Shown: one piece after another, positions 15,090 to 43,393 of the stretch
Position numbering within the stretch: the stretch's first letter is position 1
Layout: each line of letters starts with the position of its first letter
DNA from: a virus
IMG/VR virus record: IMGVR_UViG_3300009194_000020
Span: 1 to 43,393 of that record
Reading direction: 5' to 3' (one strand)
Length of the DNA stretch: 43,393 bases
The notes under the pieces: generated by a model
The model's input: the letters and a program-made list of their open reading frames with translations, nothing else
What the model was told of the DNA's origin: nothing
The model's database searches: none
Made by a program: the position numbers and the translations under genes

Positions 15090-15508
15090 AGTATGATCCT
15101 TACACCGACCGATTTGCGGTCGTATCTAACATGATCGAGGTGGACCTGGGAGACGACCCCAAGGCTGGGTTCCACAAAGTGAAGGAAACGCTGCAACGGA
15201 TGGGGTTGCCTTCCGAACGCAACAAAGAGTTGTACCAGACGGCTCACATTCTCCATAAGCAGGGACAGTACTATATCTGTCATTTTAAGGAGCTGTTTGC
15301 GCTGGATGGACAGTCCGTTGAACTGTCTGAAGGAGATATTGCTCGCCGGAACCTGATCGTCAAGTATCTGTCGGACTGGGGGCTGCTAACTCCAATCTCG
15401 GCTCATTGGCGAGTCCCGATGGGAAGTCCCAAGACCCTGAAAGTGCTAAAGCATAACGAGCGCGATAAGTGGAATCTGGTCCAGAAGTACACAATCGGCG
15501 CAGTCTAG
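15086..15508 (+). CDS. regA: RegA-like translational repressor
   Basis: RegA binds translation initiation regions of many early phage mRNAs and blocks ribosome loading. The 140-aa product matches T4 RegA along its length: HKVKETLQRMGLP, LYQTAHILHKQGQYYICHFK, LSDWGLLTP and the C-terminus WNLVQKYTIG (T4: WKLVPKYTIG). It has a short N-terminal extension. It is the last gene of the 45-44-62-regA operon and is followed by a strong terminator. Confidence 0.93.
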   Translation: MKYDPYTDRFAVVSNMIEVDLGDDPKAGFHKVKETLQRMGLPSERNKELYQTAHILHKQGQYYICHFKELFALDGQSVELSEGDIARRNLIVKYLSDWGLLTPISAHWRVPMGSPKTLKVLKHNERDKWNLVQKYTIGAV

Positions 15509-15530
15509 CACAATAACATCCATGTACCCA

Positions 15531-15564
15531 AAAGGCGGTCGGGCATTGATCCGACTGCCTTTTT
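15531..15564 (+). terminator. Rho-independent terminator after regA
   Basis: The stem GGCGGTCGG/CCGACTGCC, with one G-U pair, encloses an 8-nt loop and is followed by TTTTT. It closes the replication operon directly before the late promoter at 15566. Confidence 0.88.
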
Positions 15565-15565
15565 G

Positions 15566-15573
15566 TATAAATA
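15566..15573 (+). promoter_or_regulatory. T4-type late promoter TATAAATA
   Basis: An exact TATAAATA, the T4 late consensus recognised by gp55, lies 45 nt upstream of the ADP-ribosyltransferase gene and just after the regA terminator. gp55 and gp45 are encoded in this window. Confidence 0.8.
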
Positions 15574-15618
15574 GAGGCAACTTTCGATGTCACATAGACT
15601 CCTCAAGGACACAACAGA

Positions 15619-18600
15619 ATGATGAAACGATTCAGCGATTACCTTCTCGAGAACTCGCTGTACAGTGACCAGCAAGGATATTCCACTCTAATGAACAACA
15701 AGGGGCAGGTAGCCGAATTGTTCTTCATTAACGTGATGGGGTTCCTATCACTGTACGCCATCGACCGAACTCAGCCGAAACTCGTCTCTTACCTACGAAG
15801 CGAGAAGTCGGTCCGGCCTGATAAGATCGGTGATGCCAATAACGATATGAGCCTGGCCGTTAAGATGGCCGTCGATGCTCAGGTTATCAATCAGGTGGCT
15901 TCAAAAGAGATCACCAAGCTGCTATACCTGATCAAGTCCCGGAAGATTGATACCATCGACGATGATAAGATTCGGGACTTGATGAAGCGAGCGCGTCTTG
16001 GAACTCATATGGATGGACGGATGAAGTCCATCTATCAAGACTACCAGGATGGTAAGACCAGCCTGGCCCAACTCGCTGGTGAAATCTATCCTCGCGCAAA
16101 AGCACGCAAAACGATCAGCTCTGAGTTTCTTGACGTCGCTCAAGCGATGAAGACTGAAATCAAAGCTGCAATGAAAACTGTTGCAACTACGGCAGATGCA
16201 GATAACCCTACCGACGACAATGCGCCAGATCCGGACCTCAAGACGGATGTGCCTAAACCGACATCTGCTGTGATTCCGGACCCTGATCCTGCAATTGCAA
16301 AACGAGCTGCGGCTAAGAAGACGAGTCAACAGGCTGGTGGGACTCCAGCAAAAGACAACCCGTATGATATGTCGCTTCGTGCGAATGTGATCGCAGCGTT
16401 CTTGGATATTGCTCCTCTCGATTCATGGGATGCTGTCAAAGCTGCCCTGAAGGACAAAGGGTTGAGCTCCCATAGGTTCCCCTGGACGATGGTCCTTTCT
16501 GCAGGGGACAAGAAGTTCGATATCACTGCCACTGATGTGCATGCTGCTGTGTTTCGCAATTACAAGCAGCTTCAACAATCAGGAGTATACGATAAGATCC
16601 GTCGAGGGATTAAAGCGTTTGGGTATCAGATCTCCGGCAAGAGCGTGTCCGTTGAAGTCTCGTACCTGCAGGGGTTCTATCAAGCAGTTGAGGCGAACCT
16701 ATTTGATCCAGAACTGCCACCCTACATCAGAGAGATTGCAGACAACGGGATCCCGCGCAATCTGTTTTCGATGAAGTATGTTAGCATGCTGCAGGCAAGT
16801 AGTGCAGGATTCAAAGATAAGGTCAATCTTGTCAACACTCTGCAAGACAACCGCATTCCGGTTCCCACCGTCGCCCTCGATTTCGATTTTGATGCAGTGG
16901 ATCCATCCGAGATCGTTGAGTTTCTGCTGGATGATCAATCAAACATAACAATCGTCGAGAGAATCAGCACACAACTGTATCGTGCAATCATCCAGAAGAA
17001 CCGCACTTCGGTTGCGATCCAGGACATCTACAGCGACATGGATGCTCTGAAGGCTGCTGTTTCGCCGAATCTGTTTGCCATCTATCAAGCGATGGAAGAG
17101 GCTGACGTGTGGGTCAAACTTGGATATCCTGACCGCAGCCTCAAACAAGCTGATGCAATGTCAGACTCCGATCTGGTGGTTGATACTGTACTGTCGCAAG
17201 GACCCGCAAGCAGGGTCAATGATGCCATCCGAACCATGGATAAGGAGCAACGTGCCACCCTCATCAACGCAGTGGCTAAAAGCACCAAAATCAGCAAGTT
17301 TATCGACCTGCTGATTAGTGCCCGCTATCGCGTAAACGCATCCGCTCTACTCGATGTGGTATGCCAAGCTGTAACCATCCAGGGCTTGTCCAACGAAGGG
17401 ATGAAGACGCGTCAAGATTGGACAGATACTGAAATCGCGTTCGTTAAAGCTAACCATATGCCGAACAGCACACAAATAGTTAGTGATTCCGATGCTGTCG
17501 CAGATTACCTCGATAACCTGATGTATACGTCACTGGTTATGCGGATACGGTCCAAAGCGAACGTGTATGCGGATGAGTTCAACAACATTGTGTTTGGTGA
17601 TACTCGCGCGATAATTCCTGACGGTGTACTCAACGATGAAGCATTCAAACCGTTGTCCAAGCCTATCATCGATGCAGCTACCATTCTGACATCTCAGCTT
17701 ATCGCTAGTGGGGCCCTGTTCAACTTCACTCAAACAAAGATGATCATGAGAATCATCTACGAAGCGGATGCGCTACGGGACGTTGAACCGAAAGAGATTG
17801 CTAATCGTGTCGCGATGTCGAACCATCTCGAAATCGGCACGCTGATGAATCTGAAGACGCAACAAGATGAGATGTATGGTGAGCGAGTTGCGCAACTGAT
17901 CGTCGAAAATGCGGATAGCACATTCATCCGTTCGAATGGATTCAAACTTGGCCGTTTCTTTGAACAGCTTATCGATCAACGGGATCCGACCCCAGAGCGG
18001 TTGGAGATGATTCAGAAGTCTGTTGAGAAGCTGCAGCACGCAAGCGGTGATGGAGATAGATTGCTTAACAGTGTTGCTGACTCAGTGGCTCGAATCACTG
18101 CTGTAATGAACAATGACCTTGAGTCTCCGCTGCTTGATACGCCAGCAGCTTGCATAAACACTTACAACACGATCTTGTCGAATGCAGAGGACGGTAGCCC
18201 GATCCGAGATCAAGCGGAACAGCTCCGTCGAATTGCTGCTGAGCAAGCAACGAATACGACCAGCACTGGTGAAAGTCTGGCTCGCACTATTGAGTTCGCT
18301 GCCGCGTACCTGACAGTGGATCAGGTTCAGAATCTTGTTGATCGGATGACAGGTAACGCGAACGTCCTCAAACGAAACTCGTTTGCTATTGGGATGGTGA
18401 AACGTGCCCTTGAAGATTATCCTGAGAAGCTGGCCGTTGTAAGAAAGAATGTTGAAGAAGCAATCCGAACTCTCCCTGGCAGTCTGATCAAAGAAGTATA
18501 CAAGGATGCTCCTGATGCCATCACGGAGACAATCATGATGGCGGATGATCCAGATAGCCTGATGGAGCGGATTAATAGCCCCACGTACCGTCGAGAAATC

Positions 18601-19794
18601 AACCGCGATATCGTTACCACTGCTGTGTTCGATAGTGCGGGCGCTCGGGACATGATCTACGATGGTCCCATTCGGCCGTTGATGGATCTCGACAAGTCTC
18701 GTCTTCTTCAGGTGCTCGAGTACAACGACATCAAAGTCAACATGAAGAAGAACAAGAGGAAGAAGAACGAGTCGTACAAGGAGTATCTCGATCGCGTTGT
18801 TCAGAACACCAACCTCGCTGAGGATATTGGCGAGCTGCTCGTTTCTCGAGTTGACAACACACAGGACCAGCTTGAGCTGAAAACGATCGAGTATGAGAAC
18901 TACAACAGCGGTCGCCACGGCGATACAGCGCTCGAGTTCCTCGAGGAGTTTGATGTGCAGCAATCGCTGACTCAACCTGAGTACTGGGAGTTCCGTGACG
19001 AGCAAACAGACACCGTCATGTACCCGACGTTCCATGGTACTGGATCTGTTGCAGCATCGATGATCCTACGTAAAGGATTTGCGGTGATCAGCGCCAATGA
19101 CGCATCTGCTGTCGGTCGTATGCTTGGTAACGGGATCTATTACAGCAACGTGCTCGACAAGGTTGCTCAGTATATCGGCGATACAGGGTTTGGTCGCAAG
19201 AAAGGGACGGTTGGATACATCTTCGAAATGGAAGCAGTGCCAGGGATCAAAGGAACTCACCACGAATCTGCAGGTCTGGGTGGAGATGGTATTCGCTCAC
19301 CTGAATGGTGTGTGTACAATGCTGGGAAGCAGCTATCGATCCGTAAGGCATACAAGGTTCGGATGGTGTCAACATCTCTGATCCGAAAGCTGCAAGATAA
19401 GCATAGCGATCCAGGAGTCAACGAGGGGAGTTTCAAGCTGAGGGCATTCAGCGATTGGATCCATGCGATTCGCGAGAGTGTTGGAGCCAGCGATGAGACG
19501 GTATCAGGAGCGACTGCAGTACTCGTCTTCCGTGACGGTAAACTGCCCCATCCTACTGATCCGACCCAAGTTATCGATTGGGATGACTTCGATTACGTAT
19601 ACGGCAGCTACACAAACGTCGGTCTTGAATCATCTGCAGCAGGGGTCGCCCTGGTAGTTGACATTCCGGCTGGAATGGATGATGCTGTAGATATTGAAGG
19701 TGTCCATATCGTGACAAACACAAAGGAGTTCAGTGATTCGGAGCTATTCAACAGCATCCGATCCAGCGGACTTCTGACTGGAGGTAACCAATAA
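15619..19794 (+). CDS. Giant PARP-type ADP-ribosyltransferase, probable head-packaged protein
   Basis: The 1391-aa protein has a C-terminal ADP-ribosyltransferase domain of PARP (H-Y-E) type: FHGTG (His1139), GNGIYYSN (Tyr1174/1175) and SPEWCVYN (Glu1229). About 1100 residues of mostly helical sequence precede it. A low-complexity linker with PDPDPAIAKRAAAKK lies near 210-235. The N-terminus MKRFSDYLLENS resembles T4 head-protein targeting peptides (MKTYQEFIAEA), which are cut after the Glu by the prohead protease; ATGs at 15619 and 15622 are both possible. T4 Alt, an injected ADP-ribosyltransferase, is an analogue rather than a clear homologue (682 aa, R-S-E type). The late promoter at 15566 fits a virion protein. 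Target unknown. Confidence 0.8.
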   Translation: MMKRFSDYLLENSLYSDQQGYSTLMNNKGQVAELFFINVMGFLSLYAIDRTQPKLVSYLRSEKSVRPDKIGDANNDMSLAVKMAVDAQVINQVASKEITKLLYLIKSRKIDTIDDDKIRDLMKRARLGTHMDGRMKSIYQDYQDGKTSLAQLAGEIYPRAKARKTISSEFLDVAQAMKTEIKAAMKTVATTADADNPTDDNAPDPDLKTDVPKPTSAVIPDPDPAIAKRAAAKKTSQQAGGTPAKDNPYDMSLRANVIAAFLDIAPLDSWDAVKAALKDKGLSSHRFPWTMVLSAGDKKFDITATDVHAAVFRNYKQLQQSGVYDKIRRGIKAFGYQISGKSVSVEVSYLQGFYQAVEANLFDPELPPYIREIADNGIPRNLFSMKYVSMLQASSAGFKDKVNLVNTLQDNRIPVPTVALDFDFDAVDPSEIVEFLLDDQSNITIVERISTQLYRAIIQKNRTSVAIQDIYSDMDALKAAVSPNLFAIYQAMEEADVWVKLGYPDRSLKQADAMSDSDLVVDTVLSQGPASRVNDAIRTMDKEQRATLINAVAKSTKISKFIDLLISARYRVNASALLDVVCQAVTIQGLSNEGMKTRQDWTDTEIAFVKANHMPNSTQIVSDSDAVADYLDNLMYTSLVMRIRSKANVYADEFNNIVFGDTRAIIPDGVLNDEAFKPLSKPIIDAATILTSQLIASGALFNFTQTKMIMRIIYEADALRDVEPKEIANRVAMSNHLEIGTLMNLKTQQDEMYGERVAQLIVENADSTFIRSNGFKLGRFFEQLIDQRDPTPERLEMIQKSVEKLQHASGDGDRLLNSVADSVARITAVMNNDLESPLLDTPAACINTYNTILSNAEDGSPIRDQAEQLRRIAAEQATNTTSTGESLARTIEFAAAYLTVDQVQNLVDRMTGNANVLKRNSFAIGMVKRALEDYPEKLAVVRKNVEEAIRTLPGSLIKEVYKDAPDAITETIMMADDPDSLMERINSPTYRREINRDIVTTAVFDSAGARDMIYDGPIRPLMDLDKSRLLQVLEYNDIKVNMKKNKRKKNESYKEYLDRVVQNTNLAEDIGELLVSRVDNTQDQLELKTIEYENYNSGRHGDTALEFLEEFDVQQSLTQPEYWEFRDEQTDTVMYPTFHGTGSVAASMILRKGFAVISANDASAVGRMLGNGIYYSNVLDKVAQYIGDTGFGRKKGTVGYIFEMEAVPGIKGTHHESAGLGGDGIRSPEWCVYNAGKQLSIRKAYKVRMVSTSLIRKLQDKHSDPGVNEGSFKLRAFSDWIHAIRESVGASDETVSGATAVLVFRDGKLPHPTDPTQVIDWDDFDYVYGSYTNVGLESSAAGVALVVDIPAGMDDAVDIEGVHIVTNTKEFSDSELFNSIRSSGLLTGGNQ

Positions 19795-20072
19795 TGAGCT
19801 TCAGAAAATACCTCAAAGAGAGTGGGTATCATCTCTACAAGATCAAGGTGGGCTTTCGGGCCCCCCTCGATAAGGTTGCGATCGGGGAAGCGCTCGATCG
19901 GTGTCCCTCGGTGGTATCGTGGAGGGCTGTTCCAAAAACGAACGATCAGATCGAGATGATGACCAAGGTTGATGTCACCGAGGTCGATAACCTTGTTGAT
20001 TTGGTTGATCAGACTCTCGAACTCCTCCGCGAGGATGATATCGAGTGCCAGGTGCTGAAAGTTTACAAGTAA
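19794..20072 (+). CDS. Small protein with capsid-targeting-like N-terminus, 92 aa
   Basis: The ATG overlaps the stop of the ADP-ribosyltransferase gene (TAATG), so the two are probably co-translated. The N-terminus MSFRKYLKESG fits the pattern shared with four other genes here: hydrophobic/aromatic spacing ending in x-E. The rest has a ferredoxin-like alternation of strands and helices (YKIKVGFRAPLDKVAIGEAL, LREDDIECQVLKVYK). Could be a co-packaged partner of the large protein (inference). Confidence 0.7.
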   Translation: MSFRKYLKESGYHLYKIKVGFRAPLDKVAIGEALDRCPSVVSWRAVPKTNDQIEMMTKVDVTEVDNLVDLVDQTLELLREDDIECQVLKVYK

Positions 20073-20225: not shown

Positions 20226-22703
20226 ATGAAGCTCAATGAAAAGCAGAGCTTGGCGATGAAGAAAGTGATTGAAGGCCACAACCTGTACATCGGCGGTCCT
20301 GGTGGTGTCGGTAAATCTGTGCTGGTTCGTGAGATTCAAGATAAGTTTGGCGACTCGTGCGTCTTTCTTGCTCCAACAGGCATCGCTGCCCTCAACATTG
20401 GTGGCGCAACGATCCACTCCACGTTCAAGTTTCCGCACTCGTTTCTTACCAAGCGTGACGCGAAGAACGTCCATCAGAAGACAGCGGACCTGTTCAGTCC
20501 AACCGGATCCGTCAAGCGAATCGTAATCGACGAGATTTCGATGGTTCGCGGGGATATGATGGCAGCAATCGATCAACAGCTCCGTCTTGCTCGTCGAAAG
20601 AATGTCCCGTTTGGGGGCCTTCAGGTGATCGTTGTTGGTGATTTCTTCCAGCTTCCGCCGGTTCTCACTCAACGCGATAAGTCAATATATTTCCGTGACT
20701 ACTCATCAGTCTACGCGTTCGGGGATGAGACTTGGTCGGCAGCTCAATTCGACTACATTGAGCTGGATCAGATCATGCGTCAGTCTGACACCACGTTCAT
20801 CGAGCATCTGCAGAACATTCGCACCAAGAAGGCGGGGTACCAAGAGTCTGTTCGATTCTTCAACAGGGTTGGAAGCGAGAACAGTGATGATGTCCTCGAT
20901 ATGGATCCGACGTTCATCTGTTCTACCAACCGTGCAACGGATATCGTCAACACCCAAAACTACAGCGAGTTGGACGGCGAAGAACGAACATTCCGTGCAC
21001 GCAAGTGGGGTCAGATTGATTCAGAACCCTCCCCGACTGAGCTGCAACTCAAGTTCGGAACGAAGGTGATTTTCACTGCAAACACCGAAGAAGCCATGAA
21101 TGGTGAGATCGGATACGTCGTTGGGTTTGTAGGCGACAAAGTGAAGGTCCTCATGGAGAAGGATGAGAGCGAGATTCTTGTTGGGAGCTACAAGTGGGAG
21201 CAAGTAGAGTTCATCAACAAAGGCAACGGTCTTGCACGTGAGGTGATCGGGACGTACGAGCAGCTTCCGATTAAGCATGGTTGGGCAGTCACGATCCACA
21301 AATGCATGCCGGGCCATGTACAAGTTATGACACCTACCGGCAAACGACGTTTGGATCAACTGCATGTGGGTGATATGGTCCAGTCTCGGACTGGGTGGAA
21401 CAACGTGCTTAACCATTGGGCTACTGGCAAAAAGAAGCAGTACACTATCACGCTCGAGTCAGGCCGTACAGTAAGCAGTAGTGCTGATCATCAGTTTTAT
21501 GCTGCGCGAAATGGTAAAGCCCCCGAATTTATAGAGCTCAGTTCGTTGCGTGTGGGAGATCATCTGTCGGTCAGCGCTCAGCCTGTTGAGTTTGTCGATA
21601 ATGGGGTCTCCGTTGACCTGAGTTACCTCATGGGGATGCTGATTGGAGATGGTTGCTATAGCGAGAGTTATCGAGCTGACCACCGTATCGATTTCACTAC
21701 AGCGGACGTTGAACTAGAGCGCACGTTCACTGACTTCATGGAGTCTCGTGGGCTGCAAGTTGGTCAGATCTACACCAACAAGAAATCACCACAGTGCGTT
21801 ACTCTGTATACCCACAGCAAGCAGATTAGGAGCAACCTTGAGGAGTTGGGTCTCGATTACGCGACTGCACGTAACAAGTGCATCCCCGAAATCCTGAAAT
21901 CGTCCACCTTGGAATGTAGAGCGGCTCTGATCAGCGGACTATTGGATACTGACGGTCATGTATCCAAACAACATAACAAGTTTGTGTTTGCTACCAGCTC
22001 GAAGACTCTAGCCGAGGATATTCGAGAGGTTCTGGATACGCTTGGAGTGTTCAGCAGTGTACATACACAGAACGACGTATCGTACCAAACGGTAGTTACA
22101 GGCCGCTCATCTGTGGATCTAGCGAATCTGCTTTCGTTGAAGGTTGGGTACAAGGCTGATCGGTGCAAGCAGATTGCAAGGTCGGAAATCAAGCGAGAGA
22201 ACCGCGACTCTGTGCCATTCATGAAAGCAGTAAACAACTACACTAAATCACAACTCGTAGATCGAGGCGAGGCGTTACACACCCAACCGCAATACTTGTG
22301 GCTGGGGGACAGCCCGAAGAACCGTCGGAAGTATATCGATGAGTGCATCAAACACGGCGTCGAGCTACATCCAGACGTTTCGGAAGGGATGCGATTTGAG
22401 AAGATCATCAGCATCGACGAAGGAAGCGAAGAGGAGATGTTCGATATCGAGGTAGCTAACGACCACAATTTCTACGCAGATGGGGTTCTGGTTCACAATT
22501 GCCAGGGGTTGACTCTGCCGAGTGGTGTTATCGATCTCGGTCGAGGAGCGTTCTGTCATGGGCAAACATATGTGGCACTCTCTCGAATCAAGACGTTGGA
22601 TGGGATGGCCCTCATCTCAAACATCCGCAATCAGGATATCATCGTTGATCCTGAAGTGAGAGAGTTTTACGATAACGACTGTCGCGGTGTTGGATTGTTC
22701 TGA
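20226..22703 (+). CDS. dda: Dda-like SF1 DNA helicase with inserted intein
   Basis: 5'-3' helicase of the RecD/Pif1 group that starts replication forks in T4-like phages. The frame is 825 aa, but residues 360-758 are an intein; the exteins total 426 aa, near T4 Dda (439 aa). Visible motifs are Walker A GGPGGVGKS (22-30), motif II IDEISMV, motif III GDFFQLPPV, and motif V split by the intein at TIHK/CQGLTL. Motif VI follows as YVALSRIKTLDGM. The normally Ser/Cys position of the HKxQG motif is Cys, supplying the +1 nucleophile for splicing. Confidence 0.92.
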   Translation: MKLNEKQSLAMKKVIEGHNLYIGGPGGVGKSVLVREIQDKFGDSCVFLAPTGIAALNIGGATIHSTFKFPHSFLTKRDAKNVHQKTADLFSPTGSVKRIVIDEISMVRGDMMAAIDQQLRLARRKNVPFGGLQVIVVGDFFQLPPVLTQRDKSIYFRDYSSVYAFGDETWSAAQFDYIELDQIMRQSDTTFIEHLQNIRTKKAGYQESVRFFNRVGSENSDDVLDMDPTFICSTNRATDIVNTQNYSELDGEERTFRARKWGQIDSEPSPTELQLKFGTKVIFTANTEEAMNGEIGYVVGFVGDKVKVLMEKDESEILVGSYKWEQVEFINKGNGLAREVIGTYEQLPIKHGWAVTIHKCMPGHVQVMTPTGKRRLDQLHVGDMVQSRTGWNNVLNHWATGKKKQYTITLESGRTVSSSADHQFYAARNGKAPEFIELSSLRVGDHLSVSAQPVEFVDNGVSVDLSYLMGMLIGDGCYSESYRADHRIDFTTADVELERTFTDFMESRGLQVGQIYTNKKSPQCVTLYTHSKQIRSNLEELGLDYATARNKCIPEILKSSTLECRAALISGLLDTDGHVSKQHNKFVFATSSKTLAEDIREVLDTLGVFSSVHTQNDVSYQTVVTGRSSVDLANLLSLKVGYKADRCKQIARSEIKRENRDSVPFMKAVNNYTKSQLVDRGEALHTQPQYLWLGDSPKNRRKYIDECIKHGVELHPDVSEGMRFEKIISIDEGSEEEMFDIEVANDHNFYADGVLVHNCQGLTLPSGVIDLGRGAFCHGQTYVALSRIKTLDGMALISNIRNQDIIVDPEVREFYDNDCRGVGLF
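21303..22499 (+). other. Intein with LAGLIDADG homing endonuclease domain
   Basis: 399-residue in-frame protein insertion. Block A begins CMPGHVQVMTPTGKRRLDQL (Cys1). Block B is GRTVSSSADHQFYA. The endonuclease blocks are LSYLMGMLIGDG (helicase-frame residues 465-476) and RAALISGLLDTDG (565-577). Block F is MFDIEVANDHNFYADGV, and block G is LVHN followed by Cys+1. All residues needed for splicing and both endonuclease acidic positions are present, so it looks active. Confidence 0.93.
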
Positions 22704-24043: not shown

Positions 24044-25462
24044 ATGACAACACTATCTGAAGCAATAGCGAAGGTTAGCAACAAAACGACAACCGAAAAC
24101 GGGATGGAGATCAAGCGATCCTCCGAATCGAAGCTGGTTGATCTATTCTTTGCTTTTGGGGCATCACGTGGTCAGGACGAACTGATCGTCGAGAAGTTCG
24201 CACAAGCGTTTAACGAAGATCCCGAAGTTGCTGTCCGCATTCTCCTGCATGGTCGCGATGCGCGAGAGGGTATGGGTGAGCGGCAACTGTTCCGATCTGT
24301 GGTTAAGCATCTTGCTGTGCTCGACTACAAACTAGCGGAACGCGTCCTGCCAAAAATTCCTGAGCTTGGCCGTTGGGACGATGTGCTGTGTTTGATCGAC
24401 ACTCCGGTCGGCAAGGACGCTCTCGAGATGATCGAAAAAGCGTTATACGCTGGGGATGGGTTATGTGCCAAATGGATGCCCCGTAAAGCGACGAAGGCTG
24501 ACAACTCGGCTGCTCGAATCCGAAAGCACATGAACCTGACTCCTCGCGCATATCGTAAGCTGTTGGTGCGTCTGTCTGAGACTGTTGAGCAGCAGATGTC
24601 AGCGAAGCAGTTCGATCAGATTGAGTATTCCCGTGTGCCGTCTGTTGCAGCCGCTCGGTACCAAGCAGCATTCGATCGAAACGATCCTGATCGGTATGCT
24701 GAGTATCGCGACTCGCTTGTGAAGGGCGATTCGGACACCAAGATCAACGCAGGTGCAGTGTTTCCGTACGATGTTGTCCGAGCAGCGTTTACGGGGGATG
24801 AAGCTGTTGCGAACGAGCAGTGGAAATCTCTACCGGATTGGATCCCGAACGACAAATCATTCCTGTCGGTTGTTGATGTATCTGGATCGATGACGGCGCA
24901 TCAAGTGTCAGGTGCAGTTGATGCAAGAGAGGTTGCAATTGGTCTCGGCTTGTACGTTGCCGAGCGATGCAAAGCAGAAGCATTCCGCAACAAATTCATC
25001 ACATTCTCGACCAAGCCTGAATTCGTTGATGTATCAGGGCTCGCTCTGAAACCAGCAATACGGCGAGCAGAACGATCAAACTGGGCAATGACGACAAATT
25101 TGGAGGCAACACTCGATCTGATTGTTGACTCTGCGGTTGAGCATAATGTTGACCCCAAAGATATGCCCGAGTGCTTGATCATCTTCAGTGATATGCAGTT
25201 CAACCAGGGTGTTGATAGCCCGAACAAACCGAACGCGATGATCAAACAGAAGTTCAAGAACAACGGGTACAAAGTACCGCAGATTGTCTACTGGAATCTA
25301 GCTAACACTGAACGCAACACGCCAGTGTCGTTCGATAAGAGTGGTGTCGCTCTTGTGTCAGGATTCAGTCCTTCACTAATGAAGAGCGTGCTATCAGCAG
25401 ATCAACTCAACCCGATGGATATCATGTTGTCAGCAGTGATGGATGATCGGTACAATTTCTGA
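24044..25462 (+). CDS. DUF2828 (TROVE/Ro60-like plus vWA) RNA-binding protein
   Basis: The 472-aa protein has an N-terminal helical-repeat region typical of TROVE-type folds: LVDLFFAFGASRGQDELIVE, RILLHGRDAREGMGERQLFR, LPKIPELGRWDDVLCLID. A C-terminal von Willebrand A domain follows, with MIDAS motif DVSGSMT (Asp278), FSTKPEFVD, TNLEATLDLI and IIFSDMQF. Ro60 proteins bind Y RNAs and misfolded RNAs through this architecture; DUF2828 proteins are found in phages and plants with unknown role. It is set in an array of tRNAs and repeated structured RNAs, so an RNA chaperone or scaffold role is plausible. Start follows AAGGGAG. Confidence 0.82.
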   Translation: MTTLSEAIAKVSNKTTTENGMEIKRSSESKLVDLFFAFGASRGQDELIVEKFAQAFNEDPEVAVRILLHGRDAREGMGERQLFRSVVKHLAVLDYKLAERVLPKIPELGRWDDVLCLIDTPVGKDALEMIEKALYAGDGLCAKWMPRKATKADNSAARIRKHMNLTPRAYRKLLVRLSETVEQQMSAKQFDQIEYSRVPSVAAARYQAAFDRNDPDRYAEYRDSLVKGDSDTKINAGAVFPYDVVRAAFTGDEAVANEQWKSLPDWIPNDKSFLSVVDVSGSMTAHQVSGAVDAREVAIGLGLYVAERCKAEAFRNKFITFSTKPEFVDVSGLALKPAIRRAERSNWAMTTNLEATLDLIVDSAVEHNVDPKDMPECLIIFSDMQFNQGVDSPNKPNAMIKQKFKNNGYKVPQIVYWNLANTERNTPVSFDKSGVALVSGFSPSLMKSVLSADQLNPMDIMLSAVMDDRYNF

Positions 25463-26229: not shown

Positions 26230-26306
26230 CGCCAGGTGGCTGAAATGGTTATGGCGCTGGACTGCAAATCCAGAGAATACGGGTTCGAGTCCCGTCCTGG
26301 CGTCCA
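26230..26306 (+). tRNA. tRNA-Cys (GCA)
   Basis: Acceptor CGCCAGG/CCTGGCG, anticodon arm CTGGA-CTGCAAA-TCCAG, T arm CGGG-TTCGAGT-CCCG, discriminator T, encoded CCA. Standard cloverleaf of 77 nt. Confidence 0.92.
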
Positions 26307-26328
26307 AAAACTTTGAGGAGATAAAAAG

Positions 26329-26508
26329 ATGTTGAGTCCGATTGCAATGGGGGCGATGTTGTGGATTATCGTATTCGTCTTTCTGTTCCTGTCTATTCGG
26401 TGGACTTCACAGGGTCCTGAAGTCTTGATCAAGATGTTCTGGATTGTGATGACTCTATGGGCGTTCGTCAACGCAGCAGGATACAGCAACCTCCATTTTG
26501 TTAGCTAA
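26329..26508 (+). CDS. Small membrane protein, 59 aa
   Basis: Protein gene squeezed between two tRNAs, with a GAGGAG ribosome site 8 nt before its ATG. Two membrane segments: MLWIIVFVFLFLSIRW and LIKMFWIVMTLWAFVNAAGY. Not recognised; perhaps an accessory gene inserted in the tRNA array. Confidence 0.65.
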   Translation: MLSPIAMGAMLWIIVFVFLFLSIRWTSQGPEVLIKMFWIVMTLWAFVNAAGYSNLHFVS

Positions 26509-26520
26509 GGATCAAGCAAG

Positions 26521-26769
26521 ATGACGATGCTTCAACCACCACATCCAGGGCGAGTCATTCAACGTCGGATTCTGCCAGCATTGAACATTACCGCAGTCGA
26601 GTTGGCAGCAACCATGCATACCGTCAATGAAGCAGACCTCGTGCAGGTGTTGGAAGGGTCAGCTCCGATTACCGAAAGCATTGCTTATAATCTGGAGCAG
26701 ATTGAGATCGGTGACGCAGAGCACTGGCTGCGGATGCAGAAGAACTACGATCAGTCACGCAGTAAATGA
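26521..26769 (+). CDS. HigA-like XRE antitoxin-type protein, 82 aa
   Basis: The sequence follows the HigA/VapI antidote pattern: HPGRVIQRRILPALNITAVE (HPGE-type start), then an HTH-like segment VELAATMHTVNEADLVQVLE. The ending is DAEHWLRMQKNYDQSR, equal to the family's typical xxFWLxLQxxYD end. HigA proteins neutralise HigB RNases and repress their own operon. No HigB-type toxin is encoded next to it, so it may counter a host toxin or act only as a repressor (inference). AAGGA precedes the ATG. Confidence 0.75.
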   Translation: MTMLQPPHPGRVIQRRILPALNITAVELAATMHTVNEADLVQVLEGSAPITESIAYNLEQIEIGDAEHWLRMQKNYDQSRSK

Positions 26770-26777
26770 AGGCGTGT

Positions 26778-26854
26778 GCCCGACTGGCCCAATTGGCAGA
26801 GGCAAAAGGTCTAAGCCCTTAGAGTTCTCGGTTCGAATCCGAGGTCGGGTACCA
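26778..26854 (+). tRNA. tRNA with TAA anticodon (Leu-like), C33
   Basis: Acceptor GCCCGAC/GTCGGGT, T arm CTCGG-TTCGAAT-CCGAG, discriminator A, CCA. The best anticodon arm is AAAGG-TCTAAGC-CCTTA, giving TAA with C instead of U at position 33. The D arm looks Leu-like (AATTGGCAGAGGC), but the variable region is only about 5 nt, whereas bacterial tRNA-Leu normally has a long one. Confidence 0.75.
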
Positions 26855-26864
26855 AAATAAATTT

Positions 26865-26950
26865 CAAATCAGCGGTTGACGGTTCGAAATAAACAAGGGA
26901 AGATGCTTCCCATAGTTATTCAAAAAAGTTTGAAAGATATAGCTGATTTG
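26865..26950 (+). ncRNA. Three-way-junction RNA between Leu-like tRNAs
   Basis: A 9-bp closing stem CAAATCAGC/GCTGATTTG encloses two perfect hairpins, GGGAAG-atg-CTTCCC and TTCAAA-aaag-TTTGAA. It lies 10 nt after the preceding tRNA. It could be a stable small RNA or a processing structure; no known family recognised. Confidence 0.45.
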
Positions 26951-26964
26951 AACAACAAGGGTCG

Positions 26965-26993
26965 TAAATACTTCCCACGCTCTTTAAAATCAA
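26965..26993 (+). promoter_or_regulatory. TAAATA box and boxA-like site before tRNA array
   Basis: CGTAAATA (TAAATA at 26965-26970) matches the late-promoter family of this phage. GCTCTTTAAAATCAA (26979-26993) is boxA-like, 14 nt before the next tRNA, repeating the arrangement at 23775. Confidence 0.45.
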
Positions 26994-27007
26994 CAAGTTT
27001 AATCCCG

Positions 27008-27085
27008 GGGTGACTGAAGGGAATTGGCATACCTTCCTGATTTAGAATCAGGAGCTTCTCGGTTCAAGTCCGAGGTCACCCACCA
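27008..27085 (+). tRNA. tRNA-Leu (TAG), short variable region
   Basis: Acceptor GGGTGAC/GTCACCC, anticodon arm CCTGA-TTTAGAA-TCAGG (TAG, reads CUA), T arm CTCGG-TTCAAGT-CCGAG, discriminator A, CCA. The variable region is only 5 nt (AGCTT), unlike the long arm usual for bacterial tRNA-Leu. Confidence 0.85.
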
Positions 27086-27090
27086 ATTTC

Positions 27091-27175
27091 AGCGGGATAT
27101 ACAAGTGGACAAAGTGAGAGGTCTCATAAGCCTCTGGTCATGCCTTCGTCGGTTCGAATCCGACTCCCGCTACCA
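27091..27175 (+). tRNA. tRNA with CAT anticodon (Met/Ile2), long variable region
   Basis: Acceptor AGCGGGA/TCCCGCT, anticodon arm GAGGT-CTCATAA-GCCTC (CAT), T arm GTCGG-TTCGAAT-CCGAC, discriminator A, CCA. The 13-nt variable region can form GGT/GCC, giving a type II-like 85-nt tRNA, which is unexpected for a CAT anticodon. Confidence 0.8.
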
Positions 27176-27179
27176 AATT

Positions 27180-27230
27180 GGGACGACTACAGCAACCCAA
27201 TCTGACATATATGAAATCAGACGTCGTCCC
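27180..27230 (+). ncRNA. CAGCAA hairpin RNA, copy 3
   Basis: Outer stem GGGACGAC/GTCGTCCC; CAGCAA at position 11 (27190-27195); inner stem TCTGA/TCAGA (27201-27221); GT after the stem. Starts 4 nt after the CCA of the preceding tRNA. Confidence 0.65.
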
Positions 27231-27244
27231 GTCAAAAAAGAGAG

Positions 27245-27320
27245 GCATCCTTAGCTCAGCAGGTAGAGCACTGGATTGAAGATCCAGGTGTCCTAGGTTC
27301 GATTCCTAGAGGGTGCACCA
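27245..27320 (+). tRNA. tRNA-Phe (GAA)
   Basis: Acceptor GCATCCT/AGGGTGC, anticodon arm CTGGA-TTGAAGA-TCCAG, T arm CTAGG-TTCGATT-CCTAG, discriminator A, CCA. Standard 76 nt. Confidence 0.95.
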
Positions 27321-27326
27321 TGTTTT

Positions 27327-27383
27327 AGGACGATTGCAGCAAATCAAAATTCAGACTCCTAATCTGACTTTAATTGTCGTCCT
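27327..27383 (+). ncRNA. CAGCAA hairpin RNA, copy 4
   Basis: Outer stem AGGACGA/TCGTCCT; CAGCAA at position 11 (27337-27342); inner stem TCAGA/TCTGA, the swapped version of copy 3 (a compensatory pattern); GTTTCAA after the stem. Starts 6 nt after tRNA-Phe. Confidence 0.65.
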
Positions 27384-27408
27384 GTTTCAAAGTAAACACA
27401 ATAGCAGT

Positions 27409-27484
27409 GCTGGATTAGCTCAGCAGGTAGAGCAGGTGCCTTGTAAGCACTTGGTCGTGGGTTCGATTCCTACATCCAGCACCA
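27409..27484 (+). tRNA. tRNA-Thr (TGT)
   Basis: Acceptor GCTGGAT/ATCCAGC, anticodon loop CTTGTAA on stem GGTGC/GCACT, T arm GTGGG-TTCGATT-CCTAC, discriminator A, CCA. Standard 76 nt. Confidence 0.95.
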
Positions 27485-27496
27485 CAACAGTTTTCA

Positions 27497-27573
27497 CGGA
27501 GCGTAGCTCAGCTTGATAGAGCGCTCGGTTTGGGACCGAGAGGTCGAAGGTTTGAGTCCTTCCGTTCCGACCA
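27497..27573 (+). tRNA. tRNA-Pro (TGG)
   Basis: Acceptor CGGAGCG/CGTTCCG, anticodon arm CTCGG-TTTGGGA-CCGAG, T loop TTTGAGT, discriminator A, CCA. Standard 77 nt. Confidence 0.95.
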
Positions 27574-27577
27574 ATTT

Positions 27578-27629
27578 AGGACAGTTGCAGCAACCCAACA
27601 TATCCATCGATACGGAAAACCGCTGTCCT
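27578..27629 (+). ncRNA. CAGCAA hairpin RNA, copy 5
   Basis: Outer stem AGGACAG/CTGTCCT; CAGCAA at position 11 (27588-27593); small inner stem CGG-aaaa-CCG abutting the 3' strand; GTTTCAA after the stem, as in copy 4. Starts 4 nt after tRNA-Pro. Confidence 0.65.
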
Positions 27630-27642
27630 GTTTCAAGTTAAA

Positions 27643-27717
27643 TGGCGTGTAGCTCAATGGTAGAGCATCCGGCTGTTAACCGGAAGGTTCTCGGTTCGAG
27701 TCCGAGCGTGCCAGCCA
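27643..27717 (+). tRNA. tRNA-Asn (GTT)
   Basis: Acceptor TGGCGTG/CGTGCCA, anticodon arm TCCGG-CTGTTAA-CCGGA, T arm CTCGG-TTCGAGT-CCGAG, discriminator G, CCA. Standard 75 nt. Confidence 0.95.
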
Positions 27718-27736
27718 ATTCCTCAACAGAGAGAGC

Positions 27737-27859
27737 TTGACTATACATTCTTCAGGTGAATATCGTTGCAAGTTATGTGGCGATACATCCTTCACGTATC
27801 TGGACGACGGTAAAGGTCTCTGTTGTGATAGTCGTGGTACTCGATACCACAAGAAGTAG
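27737..27859 (+). CDS. Tiny zinc-finger-like protein, 40 aa
   Basis: TTG-start frame after GAGAGAG, placed between tRNA-Asn and tRNA-Tyr. It contains CKLCGDTS and LCCDSRGTRYHKK, a CxxC...CC/H arrangement like a minimal zinc finger. The TTG start and length make it tentative; codon choice looks like a real gene. Function unknown. Confidence 0.5.
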   Translation: MTIHSSGEYRCKLCGDTSFTYLDDGKGLCCDSRGTRYHKK

Positions 27860-27865
27860 GTTTAC

Positions 27866-27954
27866 GGGGGCACACATTACGACACGTGGCGAGTCTAGCC
27901 GACTGTAAATCGGTGGCGCAAGCTGTGAAGGTTCGACTCCTTCTGTCCCCACCA
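27866..27954 (+). tRNA. tRNA-Tyr (GTA)
   Basis: Acceptor GGGGGCA/TGTCCCC, anticodon loop CTGTAAA, long variable region as expected for Tyr, T arm GAAGG-TTCGACT-CCTTC, discriminator A, CCA. 89 nt. Confidence 0.93.
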
Positions 27955-27962
27955 ATCGTTCT

Positions 27963-28038
27963 GGGTCTATAGCTCAATGGTTAGAGCGTCCCACTCATAA
28001 TGGGTTGGTTTCTGGTTCAAGTCCAGATGGACCCACCA
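27963..28038 (+). tRNA. tRNA-Met (CAT)
   Basis: Acceptor GGGTCTA/TGGACCC, anticodon arm CCCA-CTCATAA-TGGG, T arm CTGG-TTCAAGT-CCAG, discriminator A, CCA. Position 1-72 is paired, so it is not an initiator; it could be Met or lysidine-type Ile. Confidence 0.9.
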
Positions 28039-28050
28039 CCTCCCTTTTGT

Positions 28051-28178
28051 GCCGAACGAACATGGCCTGTGTCAGTGACCATACCACGTGTGTCTGGTAG
28101 CATAGCTTGCTGAAACAGCAGATATAGACTGGCTGCTGGTGGTAGACATAGCTCGGTTCGATTCCGAGGTTCGGCCCC
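28051..28178 (+). ncRNA. Oversized tRNA-like RNA (about 125 nt)
   Basis: GCCGAAC (28051-28057) pairs with GTTCGGC (28169-28175), next to a perfect T arm CTCGG-TTCGATT-CCGAG. No normal D or anticodon arm is seen. The 90-nt interior instead has TACCA/TGGTA and TGCTG-aaa-CAGCA hairpins. CCA is not encoded (CCCT follows). Possible identities: tRNA with an insertion, Y-RNA-like tRNA mimic, or decayed tRNA. Confidence 0.5.
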
Positions 28179-28183
28179 TTAGA

Positions 28184-28259
28184 TGCGCCTTAACTCAGTT
28201 GGTAGAGTGTCCGACCGATAATCGGATGGTCCTCGGTTCGAGTCCGAGAGGCGCAACCA
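28184..28259 (+). tRNA. tRNA-Ile (GAT), C33
   Basis: Acceptor TGCGCCT/AGGCGCA, anticodon arm TCCGA-CCGATAA-TCGGA, T arm CTCGG-TTCGAGT-CCGAG, discriminator A, CCA. The loop has C instead of the near-universal U at position 33. Confidence 0.9.
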
Positions 28260-29827: not shown

Positions 29828-29853
29828 AGAGGGGAGGCTGCAGCCTCCCCTCT
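29828..29853. terminator. Long palindrome, probable terminator
   Basis: A 13-bp perfect palindrome AGAGGGGAGGCTG/CAGCCTCCCCTCT with no spacer. There is no long T run; CTAAATAG follows and doubles as a late-promoter box. Confidence 0.6.
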
Positions 29854-29858
29854 AAATA
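29851..29858 (+). promoter_or_regulatory. Late-promoter-like TCTAAATA
   Basis: Shares TAAATA with the exact late promoter at 15566 and lies 39 nt before a gene with a capsid-targeting-like N-terminus (29898). Confidence 0.5.
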
Positions 29859-29897: not shown

Positions 29898-30137
29898 ATG
29901 AAGAGTTTTCGAGAGTTTATTGGCGAGGCTATGTCCCCCGACCGTATGCTCAAAATCGCGATGGCTAACGTGATGAAGTATAGCGACCTGAACATGGCTA
30001 AGAAATCATCCATGGAACAGGGTAAGTATCGAACCAAAGTTCTAATGGGTGACGACGGTCGGTACTGGGTTCCTGCAACACCTCGTGAGGAGCGGGTGCT
30101 CGTCAAAGCAGGATATGAGCGGGTCGAGTCCGAGTAA
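29898..30137 (+). CDS. Small protein with capsid-targeting-like N-terminus, 79 aa
   Basis: The N-terminus MKSFREFIGEAMS is very close to the T4 internal-protein leader MKTYQEFIAEA, which targets proteins to the prohead and is cut after Glu by gp21. The remaining 69 residues are basic (MAKKSSMEQGKYRTKVLMGD) and probably enter the head with the DNA. A late-type promoter box lies upstream and a bidirectional terminator downstream. Function after injection unknown. Confidence 0.72.
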   Translation: MKSFREFIGEAMSPDRMLKIAMANVMKYSDLNMAKKSSMEQGKYRTKVLMGDDGRYWVPATPREERVLVKAGYERVESE

Positions 30138-30195: not shown

Positions 30196-31575
30196 TTACG
30201 CCGCTGTTGGGACTCGGATCACATAGTTGCCGTGATCAACATACTCATCACGAGTAGCTGCCCACGTACTATTACTTCCCCCGAAGAAGATTGTTGACAT
30301 GATCCCATTAATCATCACTGCAGTTGAATCGCGATAGATGATTCCATCGAGCTCAAACACAGGAACGTCATCGATCCATACCCGAGCGACCCCATTATCG
30401 TATCCGACGTCGTTGAGAATCACCTCCTGAGTGACTTTTGTCCAACGTCCTGACACGAAGTAGAATGCCCCTCGACCGATGCTGTCCCCGTACTGATTCG
30501 ACTTGTTCATCGCATACAAGTACAGCTCGCCCTGACCATCCTTACGCCACATCATACGAGTCGAAAATCCATTGGCAGTGGATGCACCACCAGACGGGGA
30601 GTCACCACCATACAGACCTGGCAGCTTGCCACCTTTGACCCATTCATATCCAGGCTTGAACCGAACGTAGTAGGTCAACGTCGCACGATTCTCGGAGATT
30701 ACAATATTCTCCCAGCCTGTACCACGAATCATGCTCGTCGTGCTGGTATATGAGTCCTTCTCCATATGAGTTCGGAAGAACCGTTGAAGAAAAGGAGCTT
30801 CTGTTTGGGGGCGGATTTCTGTCGCGTCGAGATCCCACACCCCATCGGCTGTCAGATCGACCCCAAAGTCGCGCTCAAGGACGGTTGGAACATCTGTTCC
30901 TGCAGGCTGACCTTCCCAGCCGATCGCAAACGATCGGTTCTTTGGTGGTGGCAGATAGAAGTACGTCGCGGGCGGAAGAGTGTGAGTTGAGATGTCAGCG
31001 CTCGCGACAGCGACACCAGCCCCAGCTCCCTCTGCAGTGTATGTCAAATCAAGATCAGTGGCAACAATTTCACCGATGATGATTGATTCGCCCTGAGCTC
31101 CATTGCCCCACCCAAGAATACGAATGCTCGGAGTTCCGGAGTAAGCAGGAGCAGTGAATGCGACTTCCAATGTCTGCCAACCCGCTCCAACTGTCACAGG
31201 AACATCTGATCCTGCAATCTGACCCGTATCATCATAATACGCGATCTGGAAGGCATCTGAATACCCTTCAGTGGTATCCGGGTTGACTTCAACCGTGATT
31301 TTATGAGAGTGCCCTTCGATGAGAGGTTCAGGCAGATCAATCCACTGATGGTGATTGTCTACCCCATCAAGAGTAATCTTCGTGGCTTGTGGACGGCCAA
31401 GCCTATCCGCTACACCATACGTTTTGGTTACATTGCTAGAAGACTCCTGCCACTCAGAGTCTGCAGTGATGTGCGGATAGACTAGGACGTTTGGAGCAGC
31501 GTACACGGCAGCAGGAGGGACACGAGGTCCCAGCTTGATCTGACCGGCACGAGATGAGTGTCCAAGGCCTAGCAT
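30196..31575 (-). CDS. Tail protein with polysaccharide-lyase-like (PL14-type) domain
   Basis: The 459-aa protein has an N-terminal part with GLGHSSRAGQIKLGPRVPPA. A jelly-roll, carbohydrate-binding-like module follows (about 50-190: NHHQWIDLPEPLIEGHSHKI ... GWGNGAQGESIIIGEI). The C-terminal domain resembles PL14-type lyases: LTYYVRFKPGYEWVKGGKLP, then GLYGG, FSTRMMWRKDGQGELYLY, and GVARVWIDDVPVFELDG. Such proteins cleave uronate polysaccharides such as alginate. ATG 31575 is chosen because the upstream gene ends at 31577. A depolymerase tail spike is likely; catalytic residues cannot be confirmed. Confidence 0.65.
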   Translation of the reverse strand: MLGLGHSSRAGQIKLGPRVPPAAVYAAPNVLVYPHITADSEWQESSSNVTKTYGVADRLGRPQATKITLDGVDNHHQWIDLPEPLIEGHSHKITVEVNPDTTEGYSDAFQIAYYDDTGQIAGSDVPVTVGAGWQTLEVAFTAPAYSGTPSIRILGWGNGAQGESIIIGEIVATDLDLTYTAEGAGAGVAVASADISTHTLPPATYFYLPPPKNRSFAIGWEGQPAGTDVPTVLERDFGVDLTADGVWDLDATEIRPQTEAPFLQRFFRTHMEKDSYTSTTSMIRGTGWENIVISENRATLTYYVRFKPGYEWVKGGKLPGLYGGDSPSGGASTANGFSTRMMWRKDGQGELYLYAMNKSNQYGDSIGRGAFYFVSGRWTKVTQEVILNDVGYDNGVARVWIDDVPVFELDGIIYRDSTAVMINGIMSTIFFGGSNSTWAATRDEYVDHGNYVIRVPTAA

Positions 31576-31576
31576 A

Positions 31577-31852
31577 TTACCACACCCCGATGAAATCAGT
31601 GGCAGTCGTGTTAGTGGCAAGAACTTGACGGACACGAACCGGTAGAACGGAACCGGATGGAACGTTCTTGAACGTGAGAGGATCGTTTGTTACAGCATCG
31701 ACTGGAATGACAACAACGTCACCACCGGTACCGACATACAGAGCGACTCCGGCCGTCAGAGGGGTGCTGTCGCTCGGCGTAACAGCAGATGCATTGCCTG
31801 GATATTGAGTGATCGTGCTCCCGAATTCGGAGCGAGTTGAACTATACGGCAT
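31577..31852 (-). CDS. Small virion structural protein, 91 aa
   Basis: The protein is beta-rich with small residues, and its second half is GVALYVGTGGDVVVIPVDAV ... GSVLPVRVRQVLATNTTATD. This closely resembles a short family common beside tail-fibre or neck genes in phages (spike-like trimers with LPVRVxxVxATxTTATxI endings). It overlaps nothing and is translated just before the lyase-like tail protein. A minus-strand TAAATA late box lies upstream. Confidence 0.7.
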   Translation of the reverse strand: MPYSSTRSEFGSTITQYPGNASAVTPSDSTPLTAGVALYVGTGGDVVVIPVDAVTNDPLTFKNVPSGSVLPVRVRQVLATNTTATDFIGVW

Positions 31853-42921: not shown

Positions 42922-42944
42922 GAGAGGGCCCCTGTGGCCCTCTC
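42922..42944 (+). terminator. Hairpin terminator
   Basis: GAGAGGGCC-cctgt-GGCCCTCTC followed by GATTCGG, 34 nt after the HTH gene. T tract weak. Confidence 0.65.
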
Positions 42945-42967: not shown

Positions 42968-42975
42968 AGTAAATA
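42968..42975 (+). promoter_or_regulatory. Late-promoter-like AGTAAATA
   Basis: AGTAAATACAG lies 38 nt before the 43014 gene with a capsid-targeting-like N-terminus; same core and distance as 29851. Confidence 0.5.
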
Positions 42976-43241: not shown

Positions 43242-43393
43242 ATGAAAACATTTGGTCAATTCATGGCAGAGCTAAAGGAAGGTGCCCAAAAGGGCACCTC
43301 CGCTGCCACTAACGAAAGCCAAGAGACAACTCGGTCACTAAAGATCGACATGTATACAGCAATGGGATCTGATCTGAAGCTGGTCAAGAAGAA
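43242..43393 (+). CDS. Partial gene with capsid-targeting-like N-terminus
   Basis: Begins MKTFGQFMAELKEGAQKG, 9 nt after the previous stop with AAGGA upstream, and runs off the right edge after 50 codons. MKTFGQFMAE matches T4 MKTYQEFIAE in spacing and cleavage Glu. It is the second of a tandem pair of such genes. Confidence 0.68.
   Translation, partial: MKTFGQFMAELKEGAQKGTSAATNESQETTRSLKIDMYTAMGSDLKLVKK

Follow-up and report, generated by a model that had tools for sequence, protein, structure and literature searches.

A PARP-class ADP-ribosyltransferase with T4-type delivery signals, a probable head-internal protein of a T4-like phage

T4 Alt is the standard example of a phage-injected host-takeover enzyme, and a large open reading frame (ORF) in the viral record IMGVR_UViG_3300009194_000020 raises the question of whether an ADP-ribosyltransferase (ART) of the PARP type can be delivered in the same way. 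The window, by which we mean the whole stretch of 43,393 nucleotides (nt) analyzed here (positions 1 to 43,393 of the IMG/VR record), encodes T4-type replication proteins according to Pfam and PHROG matches (UvsW, gp47/gp46, clamp loader subunits, RegA, and a Dda-like helicase). Directly after regA, at 15619..19794 on the plus strand, lies an intact gene with an ATG start for a protein of 1,391 residues and 154 kDa. An original prediction, made from the letters alone, had described this ORF, and it is indeed open for all 1,391 codons; a second in-frame ATG at 15622 provides an alternative start. We consider it quite probable that the product is carried inside the head of a T4-like phage and injected, as the functional counterpart of T4 Alt on a different ART class. 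Packaging, cleavage, injection, activity, and targets are what we infer, and packaging is backed by five lines of sequence evidence.

The catalytic domain occupies residues 1018 to 1253 (18670..19377, plus strand). The Pfam PARP family, PF00644, is matched at 28 bits by the whole protein and at 30 bits by the C-terminal part alone (cutoff, 26.7), as well as by 42 of 44 relatives, and a profile built from these 44 relatives retrieves PARP1 (E = 5e-7). An AlphaFold model of residues 985 to 1391, built with 40 sequences and having a mean predicted local distance difference test score (pLDDT) of 82.9, finds its best structural matches in the catalytic domains of PARP1, PARP2, and tankyrase, and all of its top fold matches are PARP or tankyrase ART domains. 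Against the PARP1 ART domain, the match has a VIA Z score of 16.0 and a root mean square deviation of 3.5 over 176 residues, with model residues 34 to 268 corresponding to residues 1018 to 1252 of the protein. Thus, the structural comparison that had been proposed for the C-terminal part returns a PARP-type ART fold. The domain has the ART fold, the H-Y-E triad, and a lysine equivalent in common with PARP1 and tankyrases at about 19% identity, and none of the regulatory domains of eukaryotic PARPs is recognized in the protein.

The catalytic residues lie in three conserved motifs, HGTG (residues 1139 to 1142), NGIYYSN (1171 to 1177), and SPEWCVY (1227 to 1233). His1139 (19033..19035) is kept in 42 of 44 relatives, Tyr1174 (19138..19140) and Lys1181 (19159..19161) in all 44, and the catalytic glutamate, Glu1229 (19303..19305), in 43. 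We take these to be the positions of PARP1 His862, Tyr896, Lys903, and Glu988, respectively, relying on the usual PARP1 numbering together with the profile alignment and the end points of the structural match. The original prediction had named the same histidine and glutamate but had left the tyrosine as either 1174 or 1175; Tyr1175 is variable in the 44-member alignment, and only Tyr1174 fits.

The protein matches PF00644 and PHROG 18612 and not PF03496 or PHROG 802, which describe ARTs of the R-S-E type; T4 Alt itself matches PF03496, and hhalign comparisons found no profile similarity between it and the PARP-type family. Because profile, model, and 44-member alignment agree, the class is H-Y-E, as had been predicted, as opposed to the R-S-E type represented by T4 Alt: by sequence profile and predicted fold, the protein has a PARP catalytic domain. 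Whether such an enzyme performs mono- or poly-ADP-ribosylation cannot be read from the H-Y-E triad alone.

A tblastn search found relatives in 37 phage records, a number that includes weak hits, among them Stenotrophomonas Menderavirus phages, Aeromonas Aeh1-like phages, Xanthomonas phage X1, Pseudomonas phage pf16, and Ochrobactrum phage OC. The records with the gene comprise 16 from Stenotrophomonas, 14 from Aeromonas, and a few others, to which about 50 viral contigs can be added, and the products in the phage records are annotated as hypothetical protein or ADP-ribosyltransferase. A scan of viral contigs with the single sequence gave no match, and the family profile added 55 IMG/VR loci. 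Identity to the query is 39 to 47% in the catalytic part and 13 to 21% in the preceding 984 residues, and the lengths of family proteins range from 933 to 1,502 residues.

The evidence for packaging begins at the N terminus, where the first 11 residues, MMKRFSDYLLE (15619..15651), form a putative capsid-targeting sequence of the T4 IPII/IPIII pattern with a predicted prohead-protease cut after Glu11. T4 IPII and IPIII carry such a capsid-targeting sequence (PMC9026906), and both start, as read from the T4 genome, with MKTYQEFIAE/A, which has the same pattern as MKRFSDYLLE/N of the query (slashes mark cut sites, predicted in the window and Aeh1 genes). The ten-residue peptides of these T4 proteins are cut after Glu, as is predicted for the query peptide; IPII and IPIII are small, and their mature parts are unrelated to the query. 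The cut site given earlier as Glu10/11 is a single residue, whose number (11 or 10) depends on which ATG is taken as the start. Among the relatives of type A, residue 11 is Glu and residue 9 is Leu or Ile in 28 of 28, despite a peptide of variable length before it, and residues 1 to 10 are disordered in the predicted model. The same [LI]-x-E rule fits the known cleavage sites of T4 Alt, ITE-6 and LTE-619 (PMC5694885).

The targeting peptide is shared within the window. A strict N-terminal pattern, M-K-x-[FY]-x-[DEQ]-[FY]-[LIM]-x-E, fits just four of 1,502 possible starts: that of the PARP-type gene and those of three other plus-strand genes, encoding a 79-residue protein (29898..30137; MKSFREFIGE/A), a 72-residue protein with a relative in Aeromonas phage Ahp1 (43014..43232; MKSFREYLNE/S), and a protein that begins MKTFGQFMAE and runs off the window end (43242..43393). 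A looser pattern adds the gene immediately downstream of the PARP-type gene (19794..20072, plus strand; 92 residues, MSFRKYLKE/S), whose ATG overlaps the stop codon of the PARP-type gene, as well as an unlikely GTG start that has no ribosome site; this pattern matches 7 starts in the window, against 1.1 expected. The resemblance to a prohead targeting peptide that was noted originally is therefore strengthened by four more genes of the window and by the invariant site in relatives. The 92-residue protein was also considered as a small antitoxin-like partner of the enzyme, an idea that we rejected, as it has no phage relatives and carries the targeting-like peptide instead.

Signals for late expression accompany these genes. 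A T4-type late promoter, TATAAATAG (15566..15574, plus strand), lies 53 nt 5' of the PARP-type ATG and just after an RNA hairpin of 14 bp that is followed by TTTTTG (15530..15563; minimum free energy, -24.7 kcal/mol; z = -5.2). The hairpin is probably the terminator of the clamp-loader/regA unit and would shield the PARP-type gene from upstream transcription; consensus scans of 15400 to 15700 listed neither a sigma-70 promoter nor a terminator, although this hairpin folds strongly. The window contains a single copy of TATAAATA, the one at 15566, where about 0.2 would be expected per strand, and TAAATA is found near the start of 31 of 40 family genes, as opposed to 2.1 expected from the same loci, such that the perfect late promoter of the original prediction proves to be both unique in the window and conserved in relatives. 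The plus strand of phage YB07 contains 32 copies of TAAATA (about 6 expected), often 30 to 45 nt 5' of structural genes, and one copy precedes its PARP gene.

Within the window, TAAATA stands 44 to 51 nt upstream of 3 of the 5 targeting-peptide genes but of only 1 of 40 other genes (P = 0.003, Fisher exact test), and the remaining two targeting-peptide genes sit directly behind genes with TAAATA. Each of the three copies (15566, 29853, and 42970) is preceded by a hairpin: the late promoter at 29853..29858 lies behind the hairpin at 29830 to 29851 and 45 nt before the next gene, and that at 42970..42975 lies behind the hairpin at 42922 to 42944, both on the plus strand.

A second candidate cleavage site follows the ART domain. 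In the relatives, the linker past the domain is variable except for a motif, F-x-x-[FY]-[LI]-x-E, that is present in 32 of 42 (0.3 expected after shuffling), and in most of them a second cut just past the ART domain is probable and would free the C-terminal tail. The query version, FSDWIHAIRE (residues 1277 to 1286; 19447..19476), makes cutting near residue 1286 less sure. The remaining 105 residues (19477..19791) are, by analogy with T4 Alt, possibly a removable propeptide; T4 Alt sheds its last 63 residues at the LTE site (PMC5694885). In Aeh1, the PARP linker, FGEMLTE/AK, resembles the LTE/AKKK near the C terminus of the Alt protein of the same phage.

Taken together, these features suggest a course of events similar to that of Alt. 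Late in infection, the gene would be expressed from a TATAAATA promoter of its own, placed after the terminator hairpin, and the N-terminal MKRFSDYLLE would dock the enzyme to the prohead core, where the prohead protease would cut after Glu11 and perhaps also near residue 1286. The trimmed enzyme, of about 140 kDa, would then be packed with the DNA and enter the next host, where it would move ADP-ribose from host nicotinamide adenine dinucleotide (NAD+) to host macromolecules before phage gene expression.

The plan of T4 Alt resembles that predicted for the query in its cleavable N-terminal propeptide, late-placed ART domain, and NAD+ chemistry, and the C-terminal [LI]-x-E site of Alt has a candidate counterpart in 32 of 42 relatives, off register in the query; Alt differs in its R-S-E domain (PF03496, versus H-Y-E and PF00644 in the query), in the lack of any detectable sequence relation, and in being half the size. 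Several observations weigh against a head-internal, injected enzyme. The gene is placed in the replication region, outside the head cluster, although T4 alt also lies outside the head cluster. Homology of the N-terminal domains to that of T4 Alt was considered and found no support (hhalign probabilities below 1%). The copy of the linker motif in the query is off register, with Ala at the family Glu position and IRE-1286 three residues later. Members of type B (pf16) do not have the LxENSLY start, the homologue of Ochrobactrum phage OC has no upstream TAAATA, and the catalytic histidine is lost at two of 44 loci. The relatives share ancestry and are not independent, such that counts like 28 of 28 and 31 of 40 overstate significance. 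Finally, no virion proteome of any family member was found in the open-licence literature, and packaging is therefore not directly shown.

Residues 12 to 190 (15652..16188) form a conserved helical domain, predicted with pLDDT mostly above 90 and with 36% mean column identity (alignment A6), whereas residues 191 to 1017 (16189..18669) are variable and mostly helical and have a low-confidence model. The original estimate of some 1,100 residues with no recognized domain thus holds for residues 191 to 1017 but not for residues 12 to 190. A fold search with the low-confidence model of residues 1 to 1041, in which domain 12 to 190 was not searched separately, returned nothing beyond helical-repeat background and members of the family. 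One scan for the query-type N-terminal domain on other enzymes found only family loci or contig ends, and the second N-terminal type was the only one for which a swap between enzymes was observed. The start of pf16, LLTELFN, resembles LITELFD of T4, but hhalign does not support homology.

The fifth line of evidence for packaging comes from one phage (G001; loci L025 and L083), in which the PARP-type gene stands in tandem behind a gene encoding a 1,047-residue R-S-E ART protein (PF03496, PHROG 802). Over their first 200 residues, the two proteins are 66% identical (E = 4e-81), indicating that the two ART classes share one N-terminal module. This tandem (L025 1-8056, L083 265-3408) is followed by a gene for a zeta-toxin-like P-loop protein that starts MSFTKFLES. 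Mutual exclusion of Alt and the PARP-type enzyme was also examined and rejected: Alt is present alongside the PARP-type enzyme in Aeh1, Ah1, PX29, and phiAS5, whereas none was found in YB07, pf16, X1, and OC. Because the two co-occur in Aeh1-like phages, the PARP-type enzyme is not simply a substitute for Alt. A broader proposal, which we hold only tentatively and judge rather unlikely, is that the Alt delivery plan evolved twice or that its enzymes were swapped, so that a true PARP, possibly one making poly(ADP-ribose), is loaded into heads by means of removable propeptides at both ends and injected to modify the bacterium as infection begins, in parallel to or instead of Alt.

In place of modifying proteins, the packaged ART domain might consume NAD+ or modify nucleic acid or small molecules and so blunt NAD+-based host defenses on entry. 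We regard this as unlikely. The gene neighborhoods offer it some support, as there are NAD salvage genes nearby and an ADP-ribosylglycohydrolase gene immediately precedes the PARP gene in Aeh1, Ah1, PX29, and phiAS5 (L005, L011, L012, and L013), where the two are possibly a writer-eraser pair, and Iyer et al. (2022) place phage NAD+ and ADP-ribose genes in host conflict (PMC9503650). However, the closest folds are those of PARP1, PARP2, and tankyrases, and the query window, itself a fragment, yielded no gene for an ADP-ribosylglycohydrolase, nadV, or a macrodomain. The H-Y-E PARPs characterized so far are macromolecule ADP-ribosyltransferases (see also PMC9503650).

It is quite unlikely, in our estimation, that the late enzyme instead remains unpackaged in the producing cell, with host or phage proteins as its targets during assembly or lysis, for example, and with an N-terminal peptide that is no more than an anchor to the prohead core. 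The late promoter by itself fits such a role, as does the absence of virion data for the family, and a late supply of NAD+ may matter, given that nadV (nicotinamide phosphoribosyltransferase) is present in 9 of 9 complete PARP-bearing phages examined and not in T4, a comparison limited to PARP-bearing phages and T4. This account leaves unexplained why an invariant protease-type site should follow a targeting-like peptide that is shared across the window. A catalytically dead protein with a structural or DNA-binding role in the head is very improbable: the histidine is lost in 2 of 44 members, one of them a split gene, but no part of the protein is better conserved than the ART domain, whose Tyr, Lys, and Glu hardly vary. 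The split member (L028 and L031/L094), which is divided into N- and C-terminal ORFs and has Tyr in place of the catalytic His, is likely a decaying copy.

The two halves of the delivered-enzyme reading have been described separately. A PARP gene was reported in Aeh1 by Perina et al. (2014), in whose available text the triad is fully kept in 3 of 4 viral PARPs and packaging signals are not described (PMC4245714), and the gene was cited again in 2023 (PMC10789625). Many phage ARTs have been proposed by Iyer et al. to be head packaged, and the PARP family is among the viral ARTs that they list (PMC9503650; PMC7824862). The direct homologues of the query, Aeh1 p141 and the Menderavirus "ADP-ribosyltransferase" proteins (PHROG 18612), are 31 to 37% identical over the C-terminal 400 residues and share the H-Y-E triad, the late promoter, and the LxEN[ST]LY start, and the middle region of the query is longer than theirs. 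The polyvalent and MuF-fused injected phage ARTs described by Iyer, Aravind, and colleagues, PART members included, share the idea of delivery with the DNA (PMC9503650), but they use a MuF or portal fusion where the query has a targeting peptide of the T4 type with its protease site. In the open-licence literature searched, packaging of the PARP-type family was neither shown nor argued, and the link between a PARP-class enzyme and the two-propeptide delivery plan of Alt is, as far as searched, new.

If the enzyme is injected, ADP-ribosylation by injected proteins would extend beyond the R-S-E enzymes and across many large T4-like phages, the purpose of the two propeptides of Alt could be compared across two unrelated enzymes, and these phages would be a place to look for phage-made poly(ADP-ribose) in bacteria. 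Among the carriers of the gene are isolated laboratory phages, such as Stenotrophomonas phages YB07 and Moby and Pseudomonas putida phage pf16.

Elsewhere in the window, the Dda-like/PIF1 helicase gene (20226 to 22703, plus strand) is split by an intein that carries a homing endonuclease domain of the LAGLIDADG type, and a 472-residue protein (24044 to 25462, plus strand) has DUF2828 and DUF7788 (vWA-like) domains. Ten tRNA genes are clustered at 26230 to 28259 on the plus strand, and a minus-strand ORF of 479 residues (30196 to 31635), with no PHROG match, lies amid plus-strand genes. Outside the T4-like phages, Lysinibacillus phage LysYB1 (Herelleviridae; L015 1823-4441) encodes a different PARP-like protein directly upstream of its portal, protease, and capsid genes, and similar proteins occur at three further loci (L071 to L073); PARP-class enzymes may be head associated in unrelated phages too.

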